A stretch of DNA of 64,000 nt from an uncultured Tidjanibacter sp. (GTDB taxonomy: Bacteria; Bacteroidota; Bacteroidia; Bacteroidales; Rikenellaceae): assembly GCA_944326085.1 (NCBI GenBank), contig CALVCL010000012.1:1-64000 (forward strand), in the 5' to 3' direction. Each line of letters begins with the position of its first letter. Position 1 is the stretch's first letter. Shown here piece by piece: positions 1 through 16,426 of this stretch. The position numbers and the translations under genes are program-made. The notes beneath the pieces were generated by a model. That model searched no databases and had not been told where the DNA came from. It was given only the letters and a program-made list of their open reading frames with translations.

Positions 1-594
1 ATACTTGGCAAGGTACTCGCTCTGGACTATGACACGGGAGAGGAAGAAAGGATATCCCATGTGCTGTCCATGGACAGAGCGGCAAGGGAATATTTCTTCT
101 CATGGTGGAACAGGAGAGTGGAACGCATCAACCGAATAGAGGATGATGCTGAGGTGGAGAGCCGTGAGATGAAGCACCCGGCGCATGTGGCGAGGCTTGC
201 CCTGACAATGCAGGCCATGCGATACGCTTCCGGAGAAGACCATCTGCAGTCCGTGAATCTGGCTTCCGTAAAAGCCGCTGTCCGGCTGAACGGCTACTTC
301 GAGGACTCGTACCGCCGCATCCGTTCCTTCGTGGCAAACGATTCCTGCGAGGAACCGCCCAAGGTGCTGCTCTCGCTGCTGCCTGACATCTTCGACACGA
401 GGACGGCCATCGCCATAGGCAGGGAACAGCAGGATGTCAGCGAGCGCACGGTGATGAACTACCTCAAGGAACTGTGCAGGAGCGGGCTGCTGCGTAAGGC
501 CAAGGCCGGGCATTACGAGAAAGTCATATATGATAAATCTGGAAAATCTAATGAAAGCAACAATGAACCGCCAGTCCAAAACTGTAACGGATGA
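1..594 (+). CDS. DUF3987-like replication protein of a mobilizable element, C-terminal part
   Basis: The frame is open from base 1, so only the C-terminal 197 residues are visible and the true start lies outside the window. The end of the protein looks like a winged helix-turn-helix: residues around DVSERTVMNYLKEL resemble a recognition helix, followed by a basic GLLRKAKAG wing. Length, position and neighbours match the DUF3987 (primase/helicase-like) proteins that precede a DUF6371 gene and a mob gene in Bacteroides mobilizable elements; this family call is from context and general appearance, not from a diagnostic motif. It would act in replication or processing of the element. The nearest downstream gene starts 136 bp later, after a large dyad. 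Codon use is GC-rich compared with the restriction locus further right. Confidence 0.55.
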   Translation: MLGKVLALDYDTGEEERISHVLSMDRAAREYFFSWWNRRVERINRIEDDAEVESREMKHPAHVARLALTMQAMRYASGEDHLQSVNLASVKAAVRLNGYFEDSYRRIRSFVANDSCEEPPKVLLSLLPDIFDTRTAIAIGREQQDVSERTVMNYLKELCRSGLLRKAKAGHYEKVIYDKSGKSNESNNEPPVQNCNG

Positions 595-602
595 CCCCTT
601 GT

Positions 603-687
603 TGCAGCCTGCAGTCTTTGCAGTTTTGCAGTCTCGGAGTACCGGAAAGGTAAAATTCCTGCAAGACTGCAAGAACTGCAGACTGCA
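603..687. repeat. Symmetric dyad of eight TGCAG/CTGCA units
   Basis: Four TGCAG units start at 603, 610, 619 and 627, and four CTGCA units start at 659, 667, 676 and 683. They mirror each other exactly about position 645. The arms 603-631 and 659-687 pair at 25 of 29 positions, with a 27-nt loop. A ninth unit lies at 704-708. The dyad fills the gap between the end of the upstream gene (594) and the start of the DUF6371 gene (731). It could be an iteron-like protein-binding array, a single-strand origin or an mRNA hairpin; the sequence does not decide. Confidence 0.8.
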
Positions 688-730
688 AATGGCGGTTTTC
701 ATTTGCAGGAATCCACAAAAAAAGAACATC

Positions 731-1798
731 ATGAACGGATACAGATTCCACCTACAGAAATACCGTCCGGGCAGCAAGACCGCCTGCCCGGAGTGCGGCA
801 GGAAATCCTGCTTTACCCGTTATATCGACGAGGCGGGAGAGATTTCCTTCCCTGACAACGTGGGCATCTGTGACCATATCAACAGTTGCGGCTACCACTA
901 TACCCCGAAGGAATATTTCCGGGACAATCCGACTGTCAAAGAGAGGTTGGGTAAGCAGGAGAGGAACTTCCGCACACCGATGGCTGCAAGACCGATAGCG
1001 AAACCAGTACCGGAACAGGAGCCATCAATTTCTTTTCTTCCCTCTGATTGGGTGGAGCAGTCCATGCGCAGGTACGACATCAACCCCTTGTACCGGTACT
1101 TCACCAAGGTGGCCGGCAAGGAGGATACGGACAAGCTGTTCCGCCTCTACAGGGTCGGCACCTCAAGGATGTGGGACGGTGCGACCGTATTCTGGCAGAT
1201 AGATGTCAAGGGCAATGTGCGGGCAGGCAAGATTATGGGCTACGATGCGGCAACCGGCCACCGCATCAAGGGACCTTTTAACCAAGTCAATTGGGTACAC
1301 TCGGTGAGAAAGGTGCCGGATTTCAGGATGAAGCAGTGCCTGTTCGGTGAGCACCTGCTGTCGGACACTTCCGCCGCCATATCCTCCAAGCCTGTAGCCA
1401 TTGTCGAGAGCGAGAAGACGGCACTTATAGCCGCACATTTCATTCCCGACTTTATCTGGCTTGCCACCGGAGGGATGCACGGGTGTTTCAACAGCGAGGC
1501 CATGCAGGTATTGCGCGGTCGGGAGGTGATTCTCTTCCCCGACCTTAAGGTGACGGACGAATGGAGGCAGCGACTACCTATGCTGGAGGCCGTCTGCAGG
1601 CGTGCCACCTGCTCCGACCTGCTGGAGAAGATGGCGACCGACGAGCAGCGCAGTCAGGGACTGGACATCGCTGACTTTCTGCTGATGGAGGACACGCCGC
1701 AGATGATTCTTGCGAGGATGATAGAACGCAACCCCGTGTTGCAGACATTCATCGAAACCTTCGGGCTTGAACTGGTGGATGCGGGGAGGGCGGAATGA
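731..1798 (+). CDS. DUF6371 / Toprim-like primase of a mobilizable element
   Basis: A 355-residue protein when started at the ATG at 731 (MNGYRFHLQKYRPG). The open frame extends upstream to 530, but that part overlaps the previous gene and runs through the dyad, so 731 is the better start. The N-terminus has a zinc-ribbon-like segment (CPECGRKSC near residues 18-26, with a later C/H pair around CDHINSC). The middle carries a Toprim-like motif VAIVESEKTALIAA, with an acidic stretch ILFPDL further on, as in DnaG-type primases and DUF6371 proteins. The likely role is priming replication of the mobile element after transfer. It sits between a DUF3987-like gene and a relaxase, the usual gene order in such elements. 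Confidence in the family is good, in the reaction moderate. Confidence 0.7.
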   Translation: MNGYRFHLQKYRPGSKTACPECGRKSCFTRYIDEAGEISFPDNVGICDHINSCGYHYTPKEYFRDNPTVKERLGKQERNFRTPMAARPIAKPVPEQEPSISFLPSDWVEQSMRRYDINPLYRYFTKVAGKEDTDKLFRLYRVGTSRMWDGATVFWQIDVKGNVRAGKIMGYDAATGHRIKGPFNQVNWVHSVRKVPDFRMKQCLFGEHLLSDTSAAISSKPVAIVESEKTALIAAHFIPDFIWLATGGMHGCFNSEAMQVLRGREVILFPDLKVTDEWRQRLPMLEAVCRRATCSDLLEKMATDEQRSQGLDIADFLLMEDTPQMILARMIERNPVLQTFIETFGLELVDAGRAE

Positions 1799-1838
1799 TG
1801 TAAAAGCAGCGGACAGCTCGCTGTCCCATGGAAAAGGG

Positions 1839-1973
1839 GTTGTAAAATCCCGTAGCCTATTAGGGCATTTTCACCGCCTCCGCTCCGCTTCCGGCAGTCA
1901 AAAAGCCCATAGCCCGAGTGAATACCTCAGGCTCCAAATATATGCCTCCGGCAATAAAACGGGATTTTACAAC
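1839..1973. repeat. 15-bp perfect inverted repeat upstream of the relaxase; candidate oriT region
   Basis: GTTGTAAAATCCCGT at 1839-1853 is repeated in exact inverted form at 1959-1973. The 105 bp between the arms contain further short repeats (CCTCCG and CTTCCGGC-type blocks). The second arm lies 28 bp before the relaxase start. Relaxase genes often lie next to their origin of transfer, which usually holds inverted repeats next to the nick site, so this is a reasonable oriT candidate. No nick site was identified. Confidence 0.45.
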
Positions 1974-2001
1974 AGAAATGACAACCATAAGACGAACAGA
2001 T

Positions 2002-3375
2002 ATGAGCAATGCACAATACGCGGTCTGCCACCTGCAGCGTGGCAGCGGTAATGACAGTGGAATGTCATGCCATATAGAAAGGAAGGATGCCAAGGGAAAG
2101 AAATATGTTCCGGCAAATGCTGATGCAGACAGGACGCATCTAAACAGGGAACTGGTCAGATTCCCAGAAGGGGTATCCTGCCGCACCGAGGCGATACAGC
2201 ACCGTATCGACACGGCCGGGCTGCGCCGCAAGGTCGGCAGGAACCAGACAAAAGCCATCCGTATCATCCTGACCGGGACACATGAACAGATGATGAAGAT
2301 TGCCAATGGCGGCAGGCTGGACAACTGGATTGATGCCAACCTCAAATGGCTAAGGGATACATTCGGTGAAGACAACCTTGTATCGTGCGTATTGCACATG
2401 GACGAGAAAACGCCGCACCTGCACGCCACTGTCGTTCCCATTGTAACCGGGGAGCGTATCCGCAGGAAGCGGGAGGGCGAGAAGAAGTACGAGACGAAAT
2501 CCGGTCCCCGTTTGTCAGCGGATGATGTGATGCGGCGCACCAAGCTTCATGAATACCAGAACAGTTACGCAGCGGCCATGAAACCGTTCGGGTTACAGCG
2601 TGGGATTGTCGGCTCCACCGCCAAACATCAGGCAAATTCGGATTATTACAGGCAGCAGGTCATCCGTTATGAGGAGGACATAGCCAAGTTGCAGGCAGAT
2701 GTGGAGAAGGCGCAGGAGGGCAGGAACACCATCCTCTCGTGGTTCGGCAAGGGAGACCTTGCCAAAGCGAAAAAGGAACTATCGGACAAGGATGAGAAGA
2801 TTGCCGAACTCAATAAACAGATTAAGGCTCTTCAGGCAGAAAAGGCACGGTTGCAGGAGCAACATAAATCAGGAATCGAAAAGCTGCGGAACGGCTACCA
2901 GAAAGAGATAGACGCAGCCATCCGCAGGGCGGAAACCGCCGAGCGGCAGTCAGAAGAGAAAGATGCCGTCATAGACAGGCAGCGGAAACAGATAGGCCTG
3001 CTCGACCGTAAGGCAAACCCTCAGCGTTACAGCCTCTCATCCGGTGCCGAGCTTGTCCGAATCAACGTGTCCAACTACCGGAATCCGTCGCTCCATATCT
3101 GGACACGGGTCGGAGAGGAACTTTTTGAGGACACCAAGTTCCAGATAGACTATGATGTGGCCCAAAGGCATTTCAACGGCTTGATCACAGATGAGGAGTT
3201 TGTCAATGCCGTCTTCGAGCCGCAGGAACAGGTAAGCGGGAAGCAGGCCGAGCTGTTGGGAGCAGCTTTTACTCTTGCCGCTGGTGGTCCGGCAGAGGTT
3301 CACGTTGGTACTGGTTCTGGCAGCTCATCGTCTGACCTTCCGTGGAGTGAACAGAAAAAAGGGAATAGAAGATAA
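2002..3375 (+). CDS. MobV/Pre-family relaxase (plasmid recombination enzyme type)
   Basis: A 457-residue protein starting at the ATG at 2002 (MSNAQYAVCHLQRG). The in-frame ATG at 1918 lies inside the candidate oriT region and is less likely. The relaxase domain fills about residues 1-210 and carries the histidine motif HMDEKTPHLHATVVPI, typical of MobV/Pre enzymes that nick one strand at oriT and remain attached to its 5' end. Residues about 220-340 form a long charged coiled coil, followed by a Ser/Gly-rich tail. The protein would let the element be mobilised by a conjugation machine supplied in trans; no transfer genes are seen in the window. The gene ends only 67 bp before the first inverted repeat of the hsdS locus, and base composition drops sharply there. 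Confidence 0.85.
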   Translation: MSNAQYAVCHLQRGSGNDSGMSCHIERKDAKGKKYVPANADADRTHLNRELVRFPEGVSCRTEAIQHRIDTAGLRRKVGRNQTKAIRIILTGTHEQMMKIANGGRLDNWIDANLKWLRDTFGEDNLVSCVLHMDEKTPHLHATVVPIVTGERIRRKREGEKKYETKSGPRLSADDVMRRTKLHEYQNSYAAAMKPFGLQRGIVGSTAKHQANSDYYRQQVIRYEEDIAKLQADVEKAQEGRNTILSWFGKGDLAKAKKELSDKDEKIAELNKQIKALQAEKARLQEQHKSGIEKLRNGYQKEIDAAIRRAETAERQSEEKDAVIDRQRKQIGLLDRKANPQRYSLSSGAELVRINVSNYRNPSLHIWTRVGEELFEDTKFQIDYDVAQRHFNGLITDEEFVNAVFEPQEQVSGKQAELLGAAFTLAAGGPAEVHVGTGSGSSSSDLPWSEQKKGNRR

Positions 3376-3442
3376 AAACTAATTCAAAGTATGTTACGGA
3401 AAAACTTTAGCATACATATAATTAATCATCACTTACTATACA

Positions 3443-3475
3443 TACGCCCCATTATGGGAATGTGCCGTTTGAAGT
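3443..3475 (+). repeat. Inverted repeat IR1, left copy (33 bp)
   Basis: The 33 bp beginning TACGCCCCATTATGGG are identical to the reverse complement of 7198-7230. They encode the same peptide (TPHYGNVPFEV) just ahead of the first target-recognition domain in both hsdS genes. Recombination between the copies would exchange everything downstream of the conserved hsdS N-terminus. Confidence 0.93.
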
Positions 3476-4637
3476 ACCAGATTCTTGGGAATGGTGTAAA
3501 CTTGGAACTGTAAATGAAATTGCACGAGGAGGGTCTCCACGACCTATTAAAGACTATTTAACTAATGATGCTAGCGGTATTAATTGGATTAAAATAGGTG
3601 ATACTACAAAAGACGGCAAATATATAGATTCAGTAAAAGAGAGAATCCGGCCAGAAGGCGTAAAAAAATCACGGATGGTTCATAAAGGAGATTTTCTACT
3701 TACAAACTCCATGAGCTTTGGACGACCATATATATTAAATGTAGATGGTTGTATTCATGACGGTTGGTTGGTAATTTCTCCAATTGGAGAAGCATATATG
3801 TCAGACTTCTTGTACTATCTACTTTCATCTTCATTCGCTTTCGAGCAATTTACGAATGTTGCAAGCGGAGGTGTCGTAACAAATCTAAATTCAGATAAAG
3901 TTGCAGATACAAAATTTCCACTTCCTCCTCTTGCTGAACAAAAACGTATAGTTGTAGAAATCGAGCGTTGGTTCGCATTAATAGACCAGATAGAGCAAAG
4001 TCAATCAGACTTGCAAGATACAATTAGGCAGACTAAAAGCAAAATTCTTGACTTTGCCATTCACGGCAAGCTCGTGCCGCAAGATCCGAATGACGAGCCT
4101 GCTATTGAACTGTTGAAACGTATAAATCCCAACTTCACTCCTTGTGATAACGGGCATTATCCGCAGTTACCTGACGGGTGGGTAGTAGTTCCAATGCAAA
4201 TGCTGTGTTCTTTGACGGATGGAGAGAAACTTGACGGTAAAGAAATGCCAAACCTTGACGTAAAATATCTAAGAGGAGAACGTGACTTTAAGACACAGAC
4301 AAATGGGCGATATGTAGCAGCCAATAGCCTATTGATTTTGGTTGATGGAGAAAACTCTGGTGAAGTGTTCAGAACGCCGATTGAAGGTTATCAAGGCAGC
4401 ACATTCAAGCAACTACATATCAATGAAAATATGCTTGCAGAGTATATCTTACACGTTATAAACCTGCATCGTAAAGCATTGCGTGAAAACAAAGTAGGTT
4501 CGGCAATACCTCATCTGGATAAGAAGCTATTTAAGGCAATAGAAGTACCCGTACCACCTTATGATGAACAAGTAAGAATTGTTACTGTGATAAATTCAAT
4601 GCATAGTAAATTGGATGCAATAATGGAGAATTTATAA
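3462..4637 (+). CDS. hsdS: Silent, headless type I specificity subunit (hsdS cassette)
   Basis: About 390 residues with two target-recognition domains (TRDs), but without the first 60 residues of the expressed hsdS. The reading frame is homologous from the IR1 repeat (3443) onward and runs into a stop at 3423 upstream. There is no proper start; a GTG at 3462 is the first possible one. TRD1 covers roughly 3480-3920, and the central conserved helix (AEQKRIVVEIERWFALIDQI, then FAIHGKLVPQDPNDEPA) covers 3925-4140. TRD2 runs from about 4165 to 4560, and the gene ends in a second conserved segment. It lies opposite in orientation to the expressed gene, with no hsdM upstream. The most likely role is a storage cassette for DNA inversion, not a translated gene. 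AT-rich like the rest of the locus. Confidence 0.85.
   Translation: MPFEVPDSWEWCKLGTVNEIARGGSPRPIKDYLTNDASGINWIKIGDTTKDGKYIDSVKERIRPEGVKKSRMVHKGDFLLTNSMSFGRPYILNVDGCIHDGWLVISPIGEAYMSDFLYYLLSSSFAFEQFTNVASGGVVTNLNSDKVADTKFPLPPLAEQKRIVVEIERWFALIDQIEQSQSDLQDTIRQTKSKILDFAIHGKLVPQDPNDEPAIELLKRINPNFTPCDNGHYPQLPDGWVVVPMQMLCSLTDGEKLDGKEMPNLDVKYLRGERDFKTQTNGRYVAANSLLILVDGENSGEVFRTPIEGYQGSTFKQLHINENMLAEYILHVINLHRKALRENKVGSAIPHLDKKLFKAIEVPVPPYDEQVRIVTVINSMHSKLDAIMENL
4141..4162 (+). repeat. Inverted repeat IR2, left copy (22 bp)
   Basis: CTTGTGATAACGGGCATTAT plus CC is identical to the reverse complement of 6514-6535, and it marks the start of TRD2 in both hsdS genes. It contains a small dyad, GATAA-N6-TTATC, which would suit a tyrosine recombinase crossover site. 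Inversion here would swap TRD2 alone. Confidence 0.85.
4148..4181 (+). repeat. Inverted repeat IR3, left copy (34 bp)
   Basis: These 34 bp (TAACGGGCATTATCC...) are identical to the reverse complement of 5085-5118. They overlap IR2 and extend into the start of TRD2 (peptide NGHYPQLPDGW). They link the TRD2 of the plus-strand silent gene with the minus-strand half cassette. Confidence 0.88.
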
Positions 4638-4655
4638 ACTCTCCATTATTGCATC
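4614..4655. repeat. Tail-to-tail hairpin between two hsdS cassettes
   Basis: GATGCAATAATGGAGA at 4614-4629 is repeated inverted at 4640-4655, with 10 nt between the arms. It arises because both converging cassettes end in the same coding sequence (DAIMENL and DAIMESL). It may serve as a terminator for either strand or as another recombination substrate. Confidence 0.75.
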
Positions 4656-5118
4656 AAGTTTTTCAAACATTGCGTTTGTTGCATTGATTATACGCTTTTG
4701 TTCTTTTCTTGGCGGTATCGGCATGCAAAGTTTAGAGTATTCTGAAATCCAATAACGCTTATGAGTGTCACCAATGAGCCGTGTTATGTTCATAAACATA
4801 GCAACATATTCAATTTCTATATCAGCTGCTACTTTTAAGATTTTCATAGCAGATGATTTCACCTTGAATGGAAAATCAACGAGTTTAGAATCTGTGGTGA
4901 AGTCATCAAAAATGATACAGGGCGTATTCTGATAAATGCCTTCTGTTTCGTTAGTATATCCTATTACAAAAGACTTCCCTGCCGTTAAAACAGGGGTTAA
5001 ATATCTGTCGTCATAATCAGTTGAATTGACTATATAGGCTTGTGGTTGTTCGTATTCAACTATGTCCTCTAATCGACATTTGCACCACCCGTCAGGTAAC
5101 TGCGGATAATGCCCGTTA
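4632..5118 (-). pseudogene. hsdS: Silent hsdS half cassette (TRD2 only)
   Basis: An open minus-strand frame of about 162 codons runs from the IR3 repeat (5118) to the stop at 4632. It begins with NGHYPQLPDGW, exactly as the TRD2 of the plus-strand cassette does, and continues with a different recognition domain (CRLEDIVEYEQPQAYIVN...). It ends with the conserved segment PIPPRKEQKRIINATNAMFE. It has no start codon near IR3, no TRD1 and no N-terminal conserved region, so it cannot be a working subunit by itself. The intact frame and the repeat at its edge indicate a reserve TRD2 kept functional by recombination, not a decayed gene. Confidence 0.8.
5085..5118 (-). repeat. Inverted repeat IR3, right copy (34 bp)
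   Basis: Exact reverse complement of 4148-4181, at the 5' edge of the half cassette. Recombination with 4148-4181 would exchange the TRD2 of the plus-strand silent gene for the one stored here. Confidence 0.88.
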
Positions 5119-5157
5119 GGTTGCGCTTTATATTGTTATCGTATTCATCAAAAATTA

Positions 5158-5967
5158 ATGTATATGATAACAAAATTCAAAGACTATCTTGCCAAAACGA
5201 ATTTGGCAAAGAACACCGTAGCATCGTATGTGTGGACGGTGAACTACTTTCTCAGTCACTATGGAGAAGTGAACAAGAAAAACCTGTTGGCCTATAAGGG
5301 CTATCTGGTGGAAAACTTCAAACCGCAGACCGTCAATCTCCGTTTGCAAGGCATCAACAAGTATCTGGAGTTTACCAAGCACGACAGGTTGAAAGTGAAG
5401 TTTGTCAAAGTGCAGCAAAAGAACTTCTTAGAGAATGTCATCAGCGATGCCGACTATAAGTTTCTGAAAGCGCAGTTGAAGGCTGACGGTTACGATGATT
5501 GGTATTTCGTGGTATGGTTTATGGCGGCGACAGGTGCACGGGTAAGTGAGTTGTTGCACATAAAGGTTGAACACGTGAAAGTGGGTTATCTCGACCTTTA
5601 CAGCAAAGGCGGGAAAATACGCCGTCTTTATATCCCCAAGAATTTGCGGAATGAAGCCAAGCAATGGTTGAATGGGAAAGGCATAACAAGCGGTTATCTC
5701 TTTCTCAATCGTTTCGGGCAGCGCATTACGACACGCGGTATTGCCCAACAACTAAAGCATTTTGCCGATAAATATGGACTGAACCGTGATGTTGTTTATC
5801 CTCATTCTTTTCGTCACCGTTTCGCCAAGAATTTCCTTGAACGTTTCAACGACCTTGCCTTGTTAGCTGACCTTATGGGGCATGAAAGCATAGAAACCAC
5901 TCGCATCTATCTGCGCCGTACCGCCAACGAACAGCAGAAGATTGTTGACAAAGTGGTAAATTGGTGA
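5158..5967 (+). CDS. Tyrosine recombinase (hsdS invertase)
   Basis: A 269-residue site-specific recombinase of the XerC/D-like phage-integrase family. The N-terminal SAM-like DNA-binding domain covers about residues 1-85 and the catalytic domain about 100-269. All active-site residues are visible: R128 (TGARVSELL), K153 (SKGGKIRR), H216 and R219 (HSFRH), H242 (GHESIETT) and the nucleophile Y251 (RIYLRR). It sits between the half cassette and the expressed hsdS, inside the segment bounded by IR1, as DNA invertases of Bacteroides type I loci do. It is therefore predicted to invert the hsdS segments. An in-frame ATG at 5164 is an alternative start. It could instead be a leftover integrase, but its small size and position favour the invertase role. 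Confidence 0.9.
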   Translation: MYMITKFKDYLAKTNLAKNTVASYVWTVNYFLSHYGEVNKKNLLAYKGYLVENFKPQTVNLRLQGINKYLEFTKHDRLKVKFVKVQQKNFLENVISDADYKFLKAQLKADGYDDWYFVVWFMAATGARVSELLHIKVEHVKVGYLDLYSKGGKIRRLYIPKNLRNEAKQWLNGKGITSGYLFLNRFGQRITTRGIAQQLKHFADKYGLNRDVVYPHSFRHRFAKNFLERFNDLALLADLMGHESIETTRIYLRRTANEQQKIVDKVVNW

Positions 5968-5993
5968 TAATGTAGCCTTAGAAACGTGTTTTA

Positions 5994-7409
5994 TCACGCT
6001 TCTAAGGCATTTTGAATGTTGTCAAAAACGGAAAACAGTTCTTCAATTTTTAGCACTATTCTATCTTGTTCTTTTCGTGGCGGTAATGGCATTCCTATTT
6101 TATGCAATTCATTAGACGACAAGCCTAACAATCCGATACCTTTACCTCCTATTCGATTATGTTCTTTCAAGAATCGTAAAACATAATAATAAAATAAGAC
6201 ATTTAAGTCTCCTTTAGGGCGCAATCTATGAATGTGATTCTGAATGCAGATATTATAATCAAAATTCCATATTGCAGAACGGCCAATATCTCCGCCTTCA
6301 CATACAAGTAAGTCACCCTTTTGGACAGTACATTTTTCTAATTCATTATCCCTAAAAGGCATTTGTTTAACAAGAGACAAGTCAAACTGATTCCAATACA
6401 CATTGGATGTTGTAAGATAGTTTCTCAATACACCTTCTTTGTTTGATGAGTTAAGAGCCTTTCCCGTATTATGATAGAATATATCTCCTAAAATTACATC
6501 AATCCAACCAACGGGATAATGCCCGTTATCACAAGTAATTTCGGCCTTAGGATTGATGCGTTTTAGCAGTTCCGATGCTGGCTCGTCATTCGGGTCTTGC
6601 GGAACGAGTTTGCCGTGAATGGCGAGGTCAAGGATTTTGTTCTTGGCTTTTTTGATAACTTTCTGTAAATCCAATTTGCCTTGCTCAATTTGGTCAATTA
6701 AAGCAAACCAATTCTCTATCTCTGATACTATTCGGTGCTGTTCTGAAAGAGGGGGAAGAGGGAAAAACATTCGTTCCAAATTATATTTAGGTAATCCCTC
6801 ACGACCACTACCTGTTATCTTCATTGATTTAGAGAATATAGAGGATAGAACAAACGCATGGAAATATTCAGATACAACAAATATTGGACGCATAATGCAA
6901 ACATGTTGACTTACATTTCCCCGTTGAAAGTTTTCAGGAACAATTGCACAACGTCCCAAAGACCCACCTGTTATGTTTAAGAGTAAATCATTAGGCAAAA
7001 CTTCAGTACCAATCATAGTTTGATGTACCTCTTCTGATATAAATTTGATATCTTCGTAAACTAATCCACCGTTATAAATATTTTGAGACCGGAAAAATGG
7101 AATGCCCTTAGAGGAATAGTTACTGCCTCGCGGGGTACTTCCAGAACCTATTTTTGAACAAATATGTTCTATATCCGTCCACACCCAATTATCAGGCACT
7201 TCAAACGGCACATTCCCATAATGGGGCGTATCAGAAGTCTTTGCAGACTTTCTACTTCTCTTTATCTTTCCCTCTTTTATCAACTGCTCTTTTTCTACCT
7301 TGATGCGTTCAAGCAGGACAGATGCAGGTTCATCATTCGGGTCTTGTGGTACAAGTTTGCCATGAATGGCAAGATCTAATATCTTTTGACGTAATTTCTT
7401 AGTATCCAT
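5994..7409 (-). CDS. hsdS: Type I restriction-modification specificity subunit, expressed copy
   Basis: A complete 471-residue HsdS. The N-terminal conserved helix (MDTKKLRQKILDLAIHGKL) is followed by TRD1 from about residue 60 to 225. The central conserved region (SEQHRIVSEIENWFALIDQI and a second AIHGKLVPQDPNDEPAS) comes next, then TRD2 to about residue 435 and the C-terminal conserved helix (LPPRKEQDRIVLKIEELF). It directs the HsdM/HsdR complex to a bipartite DNA target, each TRD reading one half. It starts 5 bp after the DUF1016 gene on the same strand and is the only hsdS copy with its own N-terminus and an upstream hsdM, so it is the expressed one. Repeats IR1 (7198-7230) and IR2 (6514-6535) cut it at the TRD borders, so its sequence is expected to vary within a population. 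Confidence 0.93.
   Translation of the reverse strand: MDTKKLRQKILDLAIHGKLVPQDPNDEPASVLLERIKVEKEQLIKEGKIKRSRKSAKTSDTPHYGNVPFEVPDNWVWTDIEHICSKIGSGSTPRGSNYSSKGIPFFRSQNIYNGGLVYEDIKFISEEVHQTMIGTEVLPNDLLLNITGGSLGRCAIVPENFQRGNVSQHVCIMRPIFVVSEYFHAFVLSSIFSKSMKITGSGREGLPKYNLERMFFPLPPLSEQHRIVSEIENWFALIDQIEQGKLDLQKVIKKAKNKILDLAIHGKLVPQDPNDEPASELLKRINPKAEITCDNGHYPVGWIDVILGDIFYHNTGKALNSSNKEGVLRNYLTTSNVYWNQFDLSLVKQMPFRDNELEKCTVQKGDLLVCEGGDIGRSAIWNFDYNICIQNHIHRLRPKGDLNVLFYYYVLRFLKEHNRIGGKGIGLLGLSSNELHKIGMPLPPRKEQDRIVLKIEELFSVFDNIQNALEA
6514..6535 (-). repeat. Inverted repeat IR2, right copy (22 bp)
   Basis: Exact reverse complement of 4141-4162, at the start of TRD2 of the expressed hsdS. The bases directly flanking both copies differ, so the identity ends sharply at 22 bp. 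Confidence 0.85.
7198..7230 (-). repeat. Inverted repeat IR1, right copy (33 bp)
   Basis: Exact reverse complement of 3443-3475. It lies about 60 codons into the expressed hsdS, just before TRD1. The segment between the two IR1 copies (about 3.7 kb) holds all three hsdS recognition cassettes and the recombinase. Confidence 0.93.
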
Positions 7410-7414
7410 AGCAA

Positions 7415-8572
7415 TCAGTCTTTATTCAGAAACAGGTTGCAAAATTCGTTCAGCTTCTCCTGCATACGTTCTTGTGGAATAAGGATACGCTTGTATTCAG
7501 CTATCATTGTCGGGCTCATGCTCCGGCTCATGGCATATTCTACCACTACCCTATCTGCTTCAGGACAGAGAATTATACCTATGGACGGATTCTCGTTGGA
7601 ACGTTTTACATCCCGGTCAAGTGCTTCCAAATAAAATTCCAACTGACCGAGATCACGAGGATGAAACTTCGTCTTTTTCAGTTCTACAGCGACCAATGCC
7701 TGCAATCCACGATGAAAGAACAGCAAATCGGCTTTAAATGTAGACGCCCCGATATTGAGACGATATTCCTGATCCATGAATATAAAATCTTTGCCCAATT
7801 CAAGGATAAACTGCTTCATGTGCTCCAGCAAACCATTTCTCAACCGTGATTCACTATGCTTCTTTGGTAAATCAAGAAAATCAATAAACAAAGTATCTTT
7901 AAACATGACCGGAGCAGCAGGGTATGCTTTAAGCAACCCTTTTGACATATTGTCCTTATTACCTAATAAAGCCGTATATGTCTGATTTGAGATACAACGC
8001 TGAAGTTCCCGTTTTACCAGATGTTCTTTATTGGCATAAAGAATATAGAACATCCGTTCTTCGTTACTTTTACAACGGCATAAGATTTCAATATGGTTGG
8101 TCAATGTTGTCAATTCCAGTATCTTCGGCATTTGTCCAATTTCTGGCTGGACGATTTGTGCAGTTTTTGGATGTACTATTATTGCGTGTTCTGAAGATGG
8201 CTCTGAATGTGATGTCTCTATTTGTCCAATTCTTGGCTGGACAAATTCAGAGTTCAGGTATTTCTCAACTGTAGTAGCAAATGCCGCAGAAGAATATTCG
8301 TCATAAAATAGCACCATGTTATAAATGCTGCTTCGCCCAAATCCTTTGATGTCCGGTCGTTGTGAACGAATATATTCAGACAACTGTGTTACGACCTTGC
8401 TTCCCCATTCTTCGCTTTTCAATTTGGCTGAAACATAACCTCCCACATGCCATGCTGTTTGAAGCAACTCTTCATTAACAGCTTTGGAAGCACGACTCTT
8501 ATGTTGGAGAATGATGTCTATGACTTCTCCGAACTGTTGTTCGACTGATATGGCTATCTTATTGTTTTCCAT
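7415..8572 (-). CDS. DUF1016 PDDEXK nuclease-domain protein (YhcG type) inside the RM operon
   Basis: A 385-residue protein starting at MENNKIAISVEQQFGE (8572), 4 bp past the hsdM stop; an earlier ATG at 8587 would overlap hsdM by 11 bp. The N-terminal DUF1016 helical domain (VGGYVSAKLKSEEWGSKVV, then LSEYIRSQRPDIKGFGRSSI) is followed by a C-terminal PD-(D/E)XK nuclease fold. The acidic residue in STFKADLLFFHRGL and the E-x-K of VAVELKKTKF are likely active-site residues. Between the domains is a low-complexity stretch with the repeated motif IVQPEIGQ/IVQPRIGQ. Such proteins are common near type I RM systems and sit between hsdM and hsdS here. The role is unproven; an accessory nuclease or complex-associated factor is plausible. 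Spacing of 5 bp to hsdS supports co-translation. Confidence 0.85.
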   Translation of the reverse strand: MENNKIAISVEQQFGEVIDIILQHKSRASKAVNEELLQTAWHVGGYVSAKLKSEEWGSKVVTQLSEYIRSQRPDIKGFGRSSIYNMVLFYDEYSSAAFATTVEKYLNSEFVQPRIGQIETSHSEPSSEHAIIVHPKTAQIVQPEIGQMPKILELTTLTNHIEILCRCKSNEERMFYILYANKEHLVKRELQRCISNQTYTALLGNKDNMSKGLLKAYPAAPVMFKDTLFIDFLDLPKKHSESRLRNGLLEHMKQFILELGKDFIFMDQEYRLNIGASTFKADLLFFHRGLQALVAVELKKTKFHPRDLGQLEFYLEALDRDVKRSNENPSIGIILCPEADRVVVEYAMSRSMSPTMIAEYKRILIPQERMQEKLNEFCNLFLNKD

Positions 8573-8576
8573 ACAC

Positions 8577-9998
<1,422 letters not shown>

Positions 9999-10001
9999 TT
10001 A

Positions 10002-12707
10002 TTATGCTGCTTTTCTTAAAACTACAAATGTATAAAGAGAACGGAGTGCATCGTCTGCTTTCTGCATATTACCAAACGCCCGTATCATTTGTGCCGCATG
10101 GGTTGCATCGTCTTCACGAATATCCCTCACAGTACAAGCACCGTTGGAGGCGATGTAGTCCACTATGCGACTTATCACTTCGCGCTGTTTATCTGTTATT
10201 TCTCGCTGGTTTTGTCCTAGCCATAGATTGAAGTACTGTTTGGAGGTAGTGACTACACTATCCAACCGTTCGATTTGCCGGAAAGCATAGCGCACAAGCT
10301 GAATGATATTTGTAAGTGCATCGCTTTCTTCTTTGGTGGTAGAGCGTCGCACACTGTTTGGATTCAGGATGGCATACGAGTTCCAAAGTTGCTTGGATGT
10401 GAAATGATTGTTTGCCATTTTGAGCTTGTTCTCCAAATCTTTTAACATTGAATAAGTAATCGGCTCTCCTTCATTATTGTAAATGATTCGCAATGCTTCA
10501 ATTTCGTCAGTGTGTTCTCTGCAAAACTCTTCGAAGGCCTCGGTCGTGTTTTGTGCTTCCTCAATAGAAAACCCTTTAGAGATAAGTGTATCTTCTCCCG
10601 GCATCAGCGTATTGACAAATCCTGCGGCAAGAATAAGCAAGTATCGTCTTGCATCTGCATGATTGGCAAGTGGGGAAACCAATCCTTTCCGCTCGTTATT
10701 TGGCTCGTTTATGCTGACAAACGGTGGGAGTGTGCTATTGTCAAGTGCATCATAAATTCTGGAAGCAAGTCCCTTCATGTCATCATGAGCCAAGCGGGCG
10801 AACTCATTTCTCTGCGAATTGTCTGCCTTGTTATATATTCGAGAAAGCGTTGCTGCAAGACGTTGCAAATATTCATCGGGGAGATAGCCATGACTGATCC
10901 GCTCCAATAACTCTTTAAGAGTAATTGTTCTTGTTGTCGGCTCATCTGCTGTCGTCGGTATTATCTTTTCGTGTTCAGTTACACCTACGGCATCAACCAA
11001 GTAGAAGCAATCTTTACTGAATGCATTCGGGGTGACATTGCGCAGTTGCTCGTCTCCAATGGTGCGCACGCCGCGACCTTTCATCTGTATATACAGGGGC
11101 AACGATTCCACATCGCGCATAAACATCACAACCTCCAACGGTTTTATATCCGTTCCGGTTGCAACCAATGTGCAGGTAACTGCAATACGGAAATCCTTGT
11201 CGTTGCGGAACTGGCGTATCAGTTCGTTGCTGTCGCCTGCAGAATATGTGATTTTTTGCACAAAGCGGTTATCGGTACGGCCGAATACCTCTTTCGCAAT
11301 CTGTACGATATTGGTAGCGTGAGTTTCGTTGAGGGCAAATATCAATGTCTTCGGCAAATAGTCAAAGTTGGCTTCCCTTTGAGGGTCATTGAATAGTTCG
11401 GTATAGACTACATCGCGATAAGTGGATAAGACAAGTTTAATCTGTGCCGGATTGATGACACTTCGATTCAGTTCCTTACTGGTATAAGTTTTAGTCTCCT
11501 TGTTGAAGATGGTTTTTATATCTCCTGTATAGCGTGTTTCTTCTTTTACCTTTTCACCCTCCAATATGGCACCGCCATTCTCCGTTACCTGTGTTTTGAT
11601 TCTATATACACGGCAATCCACATTCACGCCGTCAACAATACTTTTTTCCAGAGTATAATTGACTATACGGTTGTTGTTGAAGAACGCCATAGTCTCCGGT
11701 ACAGGTGTGGCTGTCAATCCAACGAGTCTTGCCGTATCAAAATACTCCAATACTTTCCGCCAGTTTCCATAAATGGATCGATGACATTCGTCTATGATAA
11801 TCAAATCAAAATAATCATGCGGCAGGTTTGGATTAGGCGGCAAAATGATTTCTTCGGCTGGTTCATTACCTTCATCTTCGTCATCATCGTCGATAACATC
11901 TCCTTTTAAAAAGGAAAAGAGGCGCTGAATAGTCGAAATAATCACATTGCTGTCTGACGGAATGGATGAAGAACGAAGCCTGTTTACCGTAAATATGGTA
12001 TTGAAGGCTTCTCCGTTTTCTGTCAATCGGAAAGTTCCGAATTCGCCCTCGGCTTGTTTGCCAAGATTATTTCTATCCACCAGAAACAGTATCCTTCTCA
12101 TAGGAGTATAGGACAGCAACCGATATGCAGCAAGACAAGCTGTATATGTTTTGCCTGCCCCAGTTGCCAAAACCATCAAGGCACGGTTTTGCCCGGTACG
12201 AAAACTTTTTTCCAACTCGGTTACGGCTTCATACTGGCAATCTCGCAATCCTTTTTTTTGTAAAGTAGGAAGTCCTGCAAAATAATCACCTATCCCTAAC
12301 TGCTTGACCAACTCATAGGGAGTTGGGATAGCCATTATCTGTTTGAAACTTTGCTCCTGCTTGCGGAAGTCACAGAAATACAGATTCTTCCCATTGGAAG
12401 TAAAAATAAAAGGCAATGGGTTCTGATATGTCTGATATATATGAGGAACTCTTTTGGCATATAATGCCGCCTGCTCACATACCTTATCGGAAAGCGCATC
12501 CACATTTTCCCTTTTGGCCTCAAGAACACCAACAGCCTTACCATTAATGAAAAGGAAATAATCCGCTTCAAGATTACCCTTCAGCAATCCTTCCCTTATG
12601 GCAACAGCTGTACAGGTTGGTTCATAATCTTCCCTATTGATTACTTTCCAACCCGCCTCGGCGAACCACAGATCTATCTTTTGCCTAGCTTTTTCTTCTG
12701 GTGTCAT
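10002..12707 (-). CDS. hsdR: Type I restriction endonuclease/translocase subunit
   Basis: A 901-residue HsdR. The N-terminal nuclease domain shows E47, D49 (LEADYFLF) and the E63-A-K65 motif (VLEAK) of the PD-(D/E)XK type. The SF2 helicase motor follows: Walker A ATGAGKT with K186, Walker B/DEAH variant IIIDECHRS, motif III-like GLTATP, and motif VI-like QMKGRGVRT. The C-terminal part resembles the EcoEI-type HsdR C-terminal domain that contacts HsdM/HsdS. It translocates DNA with ATP and cuts at a distance from unmethylated targets. It is the first structural gene of the operon, 68 bp after the small xre-like regulator. Length and motifs look intact, so the restriction system appears functional. 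Confidence 0.94.
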   Translation of the reverse strand: MTPEEKARQKIDLWFAEAGWKVINREDYEPTCTAVAIREGLLKGNLEADYFLFINGKAVGVLEAKRENVDALSDKVCEQAALYAKRVPHIYQTYQNPLPFIFTSNGKNLYFCDFRKQEQSFKQIMAIPTPYELVKQLGIGDYFAGLPTLQKKGLRDCQYEAVTELEKSFRTGQNRALMVLATGAGKTYTACLAAYRLLSYTPMRRILFLVDRNNLGKQAEGEFGTFRLTENGEAFNTIFTVNRLRSSSIPSDSNVIISTIQRLFSFLKGDVIDDDDEDEGNEPAEEIILPPNPNLPHDYFDLIIIDECHRSIYGNWRKVLEYFDTARLVGLTATPVPETMAFFNNNRIVNYTLEKSIVDGVNVDCRVYRIKTQVTENGGAILEGEKVKEETRYTGDIKTIFNKETKTYTSKELNRSVINPAQIKLVLSTYRDVVYTELFNDPQREANFDYLPKTLIFALNETHATNIVQIAKEVFGRTDNRFVQKITYSAGDSNELIRQFRNDKDFRIAVTCTLVATGTDIKPLEVVMFMRDVESLPLYIQMKGRGVRTIGDEQLRNVTPNAFSKDCFYLVDAVGVTEHEKIIPTTADEPTTRTITLKELLERISHGYLPDEYLQRLAATLSRIYNKADNSQRNEFARLAHDDMKGLASRIYDALDNSTLPPFVSINEPNNERKGLVSPLANHADARRYLLILAAGFVNTLMPGEDTLISKGFSIEEAQNTTEAFEEFCREHTDEIEALRIIYNNEGEPITYSMLKDLENKLKMANNHFTSKQLWNSYAILNPNSVRRSTTKEESDALTNIIQLVRYAFRQIERLDSVVTTSKQYFNLWLGQNQREITDKQREVISRIVDYIASNGACTVRDIREDDATHAAQMIRAFGNMQKADDALRSLYTFVVLRKAA

Positions 12708-12775
12708 AGCTGTTCCTATATTTCTGCATTATCAGAAGTTATACGCTAAAAAAGATAACACATGTCCACAGGACA

Positions 12776-12982
12776 TCATTCCCGTTCATCCTTGTCTGTT
12801 ATCAGATCTTTTAAGTCTACCTGAAGAATCTCTGCAATTTGCTGCAGTGTCTCCAAGTTAGGCTGGATTCTGTTGCAAGCATAGGCATTGACCATACTGA
12901 AGCTCTTATCCAGTTTTTTAGCCAACCACGTTTGGGAAATACCTTTGTCCGACAAGACCGCCTTTATCCTATTTAGTTTCAT
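12776..12982 (-). CDS. Small XRE-type helix-turn-helix regulator
   Basis: A 68-residue protein if started at MKLNRIKAVLSDKG (12982); the open frame reaches 13030, but those codons overlap the promoter box at 13005-13012. It is a single Cro/C1-type helix-turn-helix domain (SQTWLAKKLDKSFSMVNAY, then QPNLETLQQIAEILQVDL). It is positioned ahead of hsdR on the same strand and is likely a controller of the RM operon, restraining HsdR expression or its own. Such one-domain regulators are commonly found beside restriction genes. Confidence 0.82.
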   Translation of the reverse strand: MKLNRIKAVLSDKGISQTWLAKKLDKSFSMVNAYACNRIQPNLETLQQIAEILQVDLKDLITDKDERE

Positions 12983-13004
12983 TCTTAGATGCGATTTTAT
13001 TGTG

Positions 13005-13012
13005 CAAATATA
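13005..13012 (-). promoter_or_regulatory. Predicted -7 box for the xre/hsd operon
   Basis: The minus strand reads TATATTTG, a perfect match to the Bacteroidota -7 consensus TAnnTTTG, about 23 bp before the xre start. It lies back to back with the box at 13046-13053. No TTTG is found at the ideal -33 spacing; the nearest is 15 bp upstream. Confidence 0.6.
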
Positions 13013-13045
13013 GCGAATTATATTCAACAAATCGATTTATTTTCG

Positions 13046-13053
13046 TATATTTG
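13046..13053 (+). promoter_or_regulatory. Predicted -7 box for the 13111-14411 gene pair
   Basis: TATATTTG matches TAnnTTTG exactly and ends 57 bp before the start of the small cysteine protein. Together with the minus-strand box it makes a compact divergent promoter region where the XRE protein could act on both sides. Confidence 0.6.
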
Positions 13054-13110
13054 TACCATTCAAAGAATCTCTTTCTAAAAAAGATTGGATAATTCACATT
13101 CACCTCAGAT

Positions 13111-16348: not shown

Positions 16349-16426
16349 TGGTGGGAGCACAGGGATTCGAACCCCGGACCCTCTGCTTGTAAGGCAGATG
16401 CTCTGAACCAGCTGAGCTATACTCCC
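16349..16426 (-). tRNA. tRNA-Val(TAC)
   Basis: A 75-nt cloverleaf plus encoded CCA (16349-16351). The acceptor stem GGGAGTA (16420-16426) pairs with TGCTCCC (16353-16359), with one G-U pair. The anticodon arm is CTGCC-TTACAAG..., giving anticodon TAC, and the T arm carries GGTTCGAATCC. Its 3' end points toward the accessory region, the side on which integrative elements usually insert in tRNA genes. Confidence 0.96.

Follow-up and report, generated by a model that had tools for sequence, protein, structure and literature searches.

Organization of the hsdS locus

The window, which is the whole 64,000-nucleotide stretch of DNA analyzed, contains a complete type I operon of hsdR, hsdM and a full hsdS, accompanied by further hsdS copies that lack the head, at least one of which is inverted (Table 1). 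Sequence matches to Pfam and PDB entries make the domain layout clear: the three hsdS pieces matched Methylase_S with E-values of 8.9e-29, 5.8e-28 and, for the half gene, 3.1e-4 (21.4 bits, slightly below the Pfam cut-off of 22 bits), and the recombinase matched Phage_integrase with an E-value of 2e-25. A preliminary description of this DNA had placed a full hsdS at 5994-7409 (minus), a headless hsdS with two TRDs at 3462-4637 (plus) and a complete tyrosine recombinase at 5158, and ORFs of 471, 391 and 269 aa indeed lie there. It had also reported a TRD2-only half gene; this piece is present, but the end given for it, 5118, is one base out of frame and the open frame spans 4632-5117. From its location behind hsdM the full hsdS is probably the expressed copy, and we take the headless cassette and the TRD2-only piece to be silent stores of recognition domains.

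Table 1. Genes and putative crossover sites of the hsdS locus and its flanks, in window coordinates
Feature	Position	Strand	Evidence
DUF6371/zinc-ribbon protein adjoining relaxase	530..1798	+	profile match
MobV-family relaxase adjoining headless cassette	1918..3375	+	Mob_Pre; NCBIfam MobV 207.8 bits (cut-off 100)
Headless hsdS cassette: TRD1B + central region + TRD2B	3442..4637	+	ORF 3462-4637; Methylase_S
TRD2-only half gene (TRD2C), 161 aa + stop	4632..5117	-	open frame; weak Methylase_S
Predicted PsrA/CreX-family tyrosine recombinase, 269 aa	5158..5967	+	Phage_integrase
Full hsdS: head + TRD1A + central conserved region + TRD2A, 471 aa	5994..7409	-	Methylase_S, two stretches
YhcG/DUF1016 PDDEXK-nuclease-like gene between hsdM and hsdS, 390 aa	7415..8587	-	YhcG_C, DUF1016_N; PADLOC candidate PDC-S02
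hsdM, type I methyltransferase, 472 aa	8577..9995	-	Pfam N6_Mtase, HsdM_N; PADLOC MTase_I
hsdR, type I restriction subunit, 901 aa	10002..12707	-	Pfam ResIII, EcoEI_R_C, HSDR_N; PADLOC REase_I
HTH regulator, border of shared R-M module	12776..13030	-	HTH_3
Site s1, headless cassette: ATAC-GCCCCA-TTAT	3442..3455	+	exact repeat + pattern search
Site s1, full hsdS: ATAC-GCCCCA-TTAT	7218..7231	-	exact repeat + pattern search
Site s2, headless cassette: ATAA-CGGGCA-TTAT	4147..4160	+	exact repeat + pattern search
Site s2, TRD2-only cassette: CTAA-CGGGCA-TTAT	5106..5119	-	exact repeat + pattern search
Site s2, full hsdS: ATAA-CGGGCA-TTAT	6516..6529	-	exact repeat + pattern search

Of 79 related loci, some of them incomplete, 33 have the YhcG gene. 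The match of the R-M module to two related loci, L009 and that of Rikenella microfusus (L083), stops at 13054-13055, by the HTH regulator, and the DUF6371 gene has 81% DNA identity in R. microfusus, where it too sits beside mobV. Two further repeats, neither of them in the preliminary description, were also seen: a diverged inverted pair in the central conserved region (4035-4132/6547-6644, 98 nt, 82%) and a tail-to-tail repeat formed by the 3' ends of TRD2B and TRD2C (4608-4661, 89%).

The recombinase is 66% identical to the protein of the S. pneumoniae 19F locus, 62% identical to that of an E. faecalis locus and 67% identical to a record annotated PsrA, and by its sequence it belongs to the PsrA/CreX family. 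Residues R128, K150/K153, H216, R219, H242 and Y251, presumed to be catalytic by their roles in the family, are invariant in a seven-row alignment. This enzyme probably catalyzes the inversion.

A putative 14-bp crossover site

Inverted repeats are positioned where each TRD begins. The preliminary description had reported three exact pairs of 33, 34 and 22 bp. All are exact, the first being one base longer than described (34 bp, 3442-3475/7198-7231) and the others having the lengths given (4148-4181/5085-5118 and 4141-4162/6514-6535), but the functional sites seem to be cores of about 14 bp within these repeats and not the full 22-34 bp. The crossover sites have a common form of arm, 6-bp spacer and arm. 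A search of the 64 kb with the pattern ATAMSSSSCATTAT, composed after the sites had been seen, returned six matches at up to one mismatch, five of which are the five sites (shuffle mean 0.59). The 10-bp CreX core ATTATGGGAA, taken from PMC6620402, has two exact matches in the 64 kb, both at s1; the exact core does not occur at the s2 copies, which retain ATTAT. Homology on the head side to three related loci (L083, L009 and L088) ends at 7218, that is, at s1 of the full hsdS. At sites encoding His-Tyr the codons were CATTAT in 172 of 175 and CATTAC in 3, compared with background frequencies of 64% for CAT and 70% for TAT. In the resulting site model the loosely defined "inverted repeat" becomes 14 bp made up of two arms and a proposed address, which makes register keeping and partner choice testable in a simple plasmid assay and provides a precise motif for finding and counting the switch in reads.

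Inversion in silico and a proposed mechanism

Inverting the DNA in silico at the repeats produced eight arrangements with exactly six distinct full-length in-frame HsdS of 455-472 aa, and all six TRD combinations were reachable within two inversions. The earlier expectation that two TRD1 and three TRD2 modules could give six specificities is thus borne out in silico. An s1 inversion brings the headless cassette into frame with the head, and the three inversions of s1 with s2 gave a gene with a single TRD (222 aa), a gene with three TRDs (691 aa) and an unchanged full gene.

We propose that the hsdS behind hsdR-hsdM, which bears the N-terminal head, would be expressed and that the other two copies would donate recognition domains to it. 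The recombinase of the locus would act at short sites immediately before each TRD, with s1 preceding the two copies of TRD1 and s2 the three copies of TRD2, such that s1 inversion would exchange TRD1 plus the linked TRD2 and s2 inversion would exchange TRD2. The exact cuts presumably lie within the sites, and crossover would take place inside the 6-bp spacer between the left arm ATAA/ATAC and the right arm TTAT. Strand pairing across the spacer would restrict recombination to partners with the same spacer, s1 with s1 (GCCCCA) and s2 with s2 (CGGGCA). Spacer matching would hold TRD1 and TRD2 in register, and the inversion products would therefore be in-frame two-TRD HsdS proteins. The predicted outcome is a population whose cells differ among six methylation/restriction specificities. 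Inversion probably continues in this strain, and switching presumably carries a biological benefit.

Arrangements in related loci

The preliminary description had held that one arrangement in all reads, together with the same fixed order in related genomes, would speak against switching, and had suggested a search of other strains for alternative arrangements. Such arrangements exist: related loci differ in order, so the fixed-order half of that argument does not apply. In R. microfusus the block TRD2B-TRD2C-recombinase-TRD2A is inverted (92.7% DNA identity to the window), and hsdR, hsdM, YhcG and the head are collinear with the window and 97-100% identical; the full hsdS of this species has an internal frameshift. 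In Bacteroidales SW299 (L010), TRD1A, 97.8% identical over window positions 6519-7231, occupies the silent slot behind the flank that bears TRD1B in the window. Both relatives also hold other TRDs, and ordinary homologous exchange could therefore explain part of the difference. Eight E. faecalis plasmids (L124-L131), about 99% identical in blocks, carry a homologous locus in differing arrangements that break at CGCCTATTATG, where left flanks stay and right flanks move.

Among TRD clusters with at least two known slots, 17 of 25 are found in more than one slot, and 47 of 328 similar TRD pairs span both the TRD1 and TRD2 classes, indicating that TRDs do shift position over longer times. The recombinase lies in the two orientations relative to hsdM at a ratio of 32:31 in 63 loci. 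Its orientation is without phylogenetic signal, with 22 changes on the tree versus a shuffled mean of 19.4 (63 loci) and, when the E. faecalis plasmids are left out, 21 versus 18.6 (55 loci). The related loci were all found through the recombinase, and loci that have lost it by deletion consequently go unseen.

Near-identical copies were not found in viral contigs (six related stretches, best 79%) or in plasmids (16 records, best 70%), the only Bacteroidales record among the latter being from Segatella hominis (66%). No match came up when 22 sister genomes, 10 of which have a completeness of 90% or more and a contamination of 5% or less, were searched at the DNA level. The tRNA-Val end, a repeat of which would have marked the other end of an element, matched the genome only once, at the tRNA itself.

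Spacers match between partner sites

Across 56 loci the spacer was identical in 34 of 34 pairs of s1 partner sites and in 65 of 66 pairs of s2 partner sites (one exceptional locus, L020, has non-uniform spacers), and none of the 161 cross-class pairs of TRD1 and TRD2 sites had the same spacer. The spacer itself differs from locus to locus. The recombinase tree implies at least 16 changes of spacer at s2 and at least 10 at s1, and copies within a locus stay alike. These counts derive from 211 sites in 63 loci, of which 23 fall in seven loci that were set aside (L069, L074-L077, L080 and L082); an arm filter removed one of the remaining 188, and one R. microfusus s1 site, misclassed owing to the internal frameshift, was assigned by hand. 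Unfiltered, 68 of 79 s2 pairs matched, the misses coming from L020, L049 and five streptococcal loci whose sites were read in a different register; 36 s1 pairs matched, two of them from streptococcal loci (L076 and L080) in the wrong register. Site selection tolerated no more than one mismatch to ATTAT, which in part imposes the A at the end of the spacer, and the informative bases are therefore the first five. The site regex gave no match in six Treponema loci. One of these loci, L064, does show repeats that bear a CTATGAG arm.

The spacer may thus serve as an address for pairing, holding TRD1 and TRD2 in register. We lean slightly toward the broader reading of a diversifying pairing code in PsrA-family shufflons, under which the 6-bp spacer must match between partners and is not read for its identity by the recombinase. 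If true, this code would keep TRD1 and TRD2 exchange apart inside each locus and would also distinguish loci. PMC6620402 gives the 5 bp upstream of the core as CTCTT at two pneumococcal repeats and GAAAC at the third, and offers this difference as a possible reason why the 85-bp repeat is unaffected by CreX loss; under a pairing code these would be two addresses.

Alternative explanations

The repeats could be the relic of a past duplication whose order is fixed in the lineage, and the assembly of the window does hold a single arrangement. We regard this as highly improbable, as the recombinase is complete with its presumed catalytic residues, the repeats are exact over 22-34 bp though adjoining central regions have drifted to 82%, and the relatives and the recombinase orientation behave as described above; a fixed duplication was rejected on the varying order among relatives. 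Switching might instead proceed by homologous or RecA-independent exchange at longer repeats and not through the recombinase of the locus. According to PMC6620402, the 85-bp and 333-bp pneumococcal repeats still switch after CreX loss, and in the window the 98-nt inverted pair lies between TRD1 and TRD2. The longest exact repeat in the window, however, is 34 bp, the 15-bp pneumococcal repeat is by the same account strictly CreX-dependent, PsrA is stated to drive all three pneumococcal inversions (PMC7096588, in a passage citing Li et al. 2019), and breakpoints in relatives fall at short sites, all of which makes such exchange very unlikely. We conclude that the locus is very probably a PsrA/CreX-type hsdS inverton acting as a six-way specificity switch.

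Spacer matching could also be a by-product, reflecting gene conversion and common coding sequence with no pairing rule. Partner sites exchange DNA and thereby homogenize, the sites are coding, with the spacer "CA" falling in a His codon, and the site finder contributes to the agreement at the final A. Adjacent six-mers nevertheless match less, at 8 of 33 and 21 of 68 pairs to the left of the spacer and 21 of 33 and 21 of 68 to the right of TTAT (these controls, like the between-locus counts, predate reassignment of the R. microfusus site). Orphan s2 copies have the same spacer even though the sequence to their left belongs to no long hsdS frame and in several cases contains a stop directly upstream, and the residue encoded at the spacer differs among loci. 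Together with the repeated change of spacers on the recombinase tree while copies within a locus remain alike, this leaves a by-product possible but rather doubtful beside the pairing code.

Comparison with known systems

That hsdS inversion is known in Bacteroides, as the preliminary description noted, stands, but the closest system found is the pneumococcal PsrA/CreX locus, and the host here is probably a member of the Rikenellaceae and not a Bacteroides. The E. faecalis plasmid locus shares with the window a homologous recombinase (62%) and the same site form, and differs in having two TRD2-only pieces, an extra 332-aa ORF by the recombinase and other spacers. The R64 shufflon likewise switches by inversion at several sites through a tyrosine recombinase, Rci, and its sites have a short spacer and a single conserved arm, but it switches pilus tip genes.

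In B. fragilis NCTC 9343, the hsdS shufflon BB is described in PMC3090145 as having four repeat sets, eight products and an adjacent tyrosine integrase. It and the window locus are both multi-cassette type I specificity shufflons with a neighboring tyrosine recombinase or integrase. The one 38-bp BB repeat printed there has no match in the window at up to three mismatches, and identity of the window locus with BB was rejected on the absence of that printed repeat. "Inverton group 145" of gut Bacteroidota and Firmicutes_A comprises, according to PMC11892184, hsdS-overlapping inversions with a tyrosine recombinase, relaxase/mobilization genes and repeats conserved across phyla; at the level of this description it resembles the window locus.

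The S. pneumoniae SpnIII/Spn556II/cod/ivr locus, with recombinase PsrA (CreX, IvrR), has three hsdS genes, one expressed and two donors, and its in-locus tyrosine recombinase and three repeat pairs give six alleles (PMC4948785, PMC6620402, PMC7394358, PMC4190663); hsdSB exchanges a 553-bp 3' half and hsdSC bears two repeats (PMC4948785, PMC6620402, PMC7394358). The window shares the three hsdS genes, the six-way layout, the 66% identical recombinase and, at s1, the core. It differs in its Bacteroidota host, in the YhcG gene between hsdM and hsdS, in mobV beside the headless cassette, in its spacers, and in exact repeats of 22-34 bp compared with 15, 85 and 298-333 bp in the pneumococcal locus. 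The locus is very probably a further example of a switch of known kind, a pneumococcal-type six-state methylation/restriction switch placed in a small-genome Bacteroidota species and adjoining mobilization genes; comparison of many relatives suggests that a six-letter address at each flip point orders the parts.

Locus organization and genomic setting

A type I restriction-modification operon consisting of hsdR, hsdM, a YhcG/DUF1016 gene and hsdS is followed by a tyrosine recombinase gene and two more hsdS pieces, which extend the locus to position 3442 (Table). The preliminary description is confirmed for all three hsdS pieces and for its exact inverted repeats, with the corrections that the frame of the half gene was off by one base and that the first repeat is one base longer. 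The full hsdS holds TRD1A and TRD2A, the headless cassette TRD1B and TRD2B, and the half gene TRD2C; we refer to the two putative crossover sites before TRD1 modules as s1 and to the three before TRD2 modules as s2.

Table. Features of the window and segments compared with related loci
Feature	Positions	Strand	Counterpart
Mobilisation genes and restriction-modification locus	1-13055		
mobV and DUF6371 genes, matching segment	9-3495		R. microfusus, 82%
Flank bearing TRD1B	3369-3489		SW299, 89%
Segment inverted in R. microfusus	3924-6761		L083, 92.7%
Tail-to-tail ends of TRD2B and TRD2C	4608-4661		
Tyrosine recombinase, 269 aa	5158-5967	plus	
Operon, hsdR to hsdS	5994-12707	minus	
TRD1A module	6519-7231		SW299, 97.8%
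Restriction-modification module	7218-13055		R. microfusus and Ca. Bacteroides merdavium, 97% (DNA), ending 13054-13055
YhcG/DUF1016 gene	7415-8587	minus	PDC-S02 (PADLOC)
tRNA-Val	16349-16426		

The genome comprises 1.69 Mb in 14 contigs, and the window begins at base 1 of contig C12, in the same stretch as genes for a MobV relaxase and a DUF6371 protein, which adjoin the restriction-modification module. The module looks like the cargo of a mobilisable element near a tRNA-Val gene. At the DNA level, a search across the genus (23 genomes, among them the window's own) matched that genome only. Matches were found in 10/268 genomes of the family (E <= 1e-20) and 6/393 of an order sample (E <= 1e-60), own genome included in both; the best other family match, G244, aligns over the same interval of the query as Rikenella microfusus does. 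The window probably comes from a member of the Rikenellaceae.

A contig scan for recombinase homologues, from which the best 80 of 88 encoding stretches were taken, provided 79 distinct loci for comparison. Among these, some of them incomplete, 33 carry the YhcG/DUF1016 gene, which in the window lies between hsdM and hsdS and whose PDDEXK-nuclease-like product matches a candidate defence family. The ends of TRD2B and TRD2C meet in a near-perfect inverted repeat spanning both stop codons, which might be a terminator or have been left by duplication of a cassette; similar repeats occur in L083 (R. microfusus) and L081.

Predicted inversion products

In silico inversion between same-class sites that face in opposite directions reached 8 arrangements, which encode all six TRD1xTRD2 combinations in full-length frames of 455-472 aa, every combination being at most two inversions away. 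Of three cross-class inversions, one left the full gene unaltered and the other two produced genes with one TRD (222 aa) and with three TRDs (691 aa). Because the s2 copies preceding TRD2A and TRD2C form a same-class pair in direct orientation, a deletion that includes the recombinase would be possible in principle.

Rearrangement among relatives

In R. microfusus, hsdR, hsdM, YhcG and the N-terminal head of hsdS are collinear with the window and 97-100% identical, but window segment 3924-6761 aligns in the opposite sense; the TRD1 modules of R. microfusus differ from those of the window. In strain DSM 15922 of this species the full hsdS (L083:8105-9500) is frameshifted near the end of TRD1, either through misassembly or as a genuine off state. 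In Bacteroidales SW299 (L010), TRD1A adjoins the flank that bears TRD1B in the window, with the match stopping at the two sites, s1 and s2; this contig begins within the recombinase gene and therefore lacks the hsdM side.

Clustering of 187 TRD segments at >=85% over >=300 nt gave 25 clusters in which the slot is known for two or more members; 17 of the 25 span more than one slot, and 31/46 pairs lie in different slots. We also compared 8/9 Enterococcus faecalis plasmids that have the E. faecalis recombinase homologue. Their hsdS regions are built of blocks ~99% identical, and none of the seven others is collinear with L124. At their s2 sites the left 16 bases are bound to the slot while the right-hand sequence moves with the TRD.

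In all 63 loci with hsdM within 9 kb, hsdM is directed at the recombinase, which has the same orientation as hsdM in 32 and the opposed one in 31. On the recombinase tree this orientation requires 22 changes against a shuffled-label mean of 19.4 (280/300 shuffles required <=22), and 21 against 18.6 when the eight E. faecalis plasmids were left out (55 loci). Recombinase orientation is thus without visible inheritance, as expected if flipping outpaces lineage splitting.

The recombinase is 96% identical to its Rikenella homologue, 88% to that of Phocaeicola vulgatus, 79% to Chryseobacterium, 72% to Treponema, 66% to Streptococcus pneumoniae and 62% to E. faecalis. The residues that we take to be catalytic are unchanged across the alignment of these seven proteins. 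A plasmid protein 67% identical to the recombinase is annotated PsrA, and the recombinase's own sequence relatives in the PDB are XerC-like, XerA, XerD, XerH and IntI4 proteins. One Phocaeicola coprocola locus (L015) has two recombinase copies, at 8108-10802, on opposite strands and facing apart.

Putative crossover sites and spacer matching

In 56 loci readable in one register, the site consists of a left arm, a 6-bp spacer and the right arm TTAT, followed by NNG (G in 92%). The left arm is mainly ATAA or ATAC, and orphan copies show CTAA, GTAT and others. At 175 sites in 55 loci, picked by protein sequence alone, the overlapping His-Tyr codons read CATTAT 172 times and CATTAC 3 times, against a background of 64% CAT and 70% TAT in hsdM and hsdR of the same loci, which argues that selection acts on the site DNA beyond the protein.

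With 187/211 sites retained, spacers were identical among same-class partners in 34/34 s1 pairs and 65/66 s2 pairs (uniform in 32/32 and 43/44 loci), and no spacer was common to s1 and s2 within one locus (0/161 pairs). Unfiltered counts were 36/36, 68/79 and, across classes, 0/183; the s2 misses come from five streptococcal loci with a shifted site reading frame and from L020 and L049. In these five streptococcal loci (L074-L077 and L080) a DNA-level search found one common s2 spacer per locus, CTCTTA, or CTCTCC in L077. Adjacent six-mers agree less often than the spacer, in 8/33 and 21/68 pairs for the left-hand six-mer and in 21/33 and 21/68 for the one beyond TTAT. When representatives of different loci were paired, the spacer agreed in only 389/1035 s1 and 165/1378 s2 pairs, and it changed on the tree at least 16 times for s2 (44 loci) and at least 10 times for s1 (32 loci), with within-locus copies remaining alike.

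Tyrosine recombinases cut at two points, and the overlap that these delimit must be homologous between partner sites, as at loxP. A spacer variable across loci and fixed among partners is what is expected of such an overlap, and the matching spacer would serve to separate s1 from s2. Against a strict barrier, 47/328 similar TRD pairs cross classes, most of them 72-82% identical and three reaching 85-86%, so that TRDs shift position over longer time. One Prevotellaceae genome (L037) has similar TRDs (86%, 406 nt) at 7547 and 10142, in a TRD2 and a TRD1 slot.

Comparison with known systems

Such switches are reportedly known from many phyla, as surveyed for epigenetic invertons by Huang et al. 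in 2020. The locus is a genuine, probably active member of this known kind. A literature search of titles and abstract openings returned no spacer or overlap rule for hsdS inversion, PMC6620402 being nearest, and within the same scope we have not found a printed account of the matching spacer, a comparative result.

According to PMC6620402, ATTATGGGAA is the core common to all three pneumococcal repeats. CTCTT precedes it in the 15-bp and the 333-bp repeat and GAAAC in the 85-bp one, and the paper suggests that GAAAC may account for the insensitivity of the 85-bp repeat to loss of CreX (PsrA). The literature is split on the need for this recombinase: PMC7096588, citing Li et al. 2019, has all three inversions driven by PsrA, whereas in PMC4948785 only the 15-bp inversion required it. 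The exact core occurs in the window at both s1 copies and no other place in 64 kb. The S. pneumoniae 19F locus has two spacers, since GAAACATTATGAG stands at both outer-repeat copies and CTCTTA at the s2 sites. PsrA is reported to require the 15-bp repeat and the sequence directly upstream (PMC7096588), consistent with a site made up of a spacer and both arms. PMC3090145 describes an hsdS shufflon in B. fragilis, PMC7394358 surveys inverting type I loci, and PMC11892184 reports an inverton group that is conserved across phyla and combines hsdS with genes for a tyrosine recombinase and for mobilisation.
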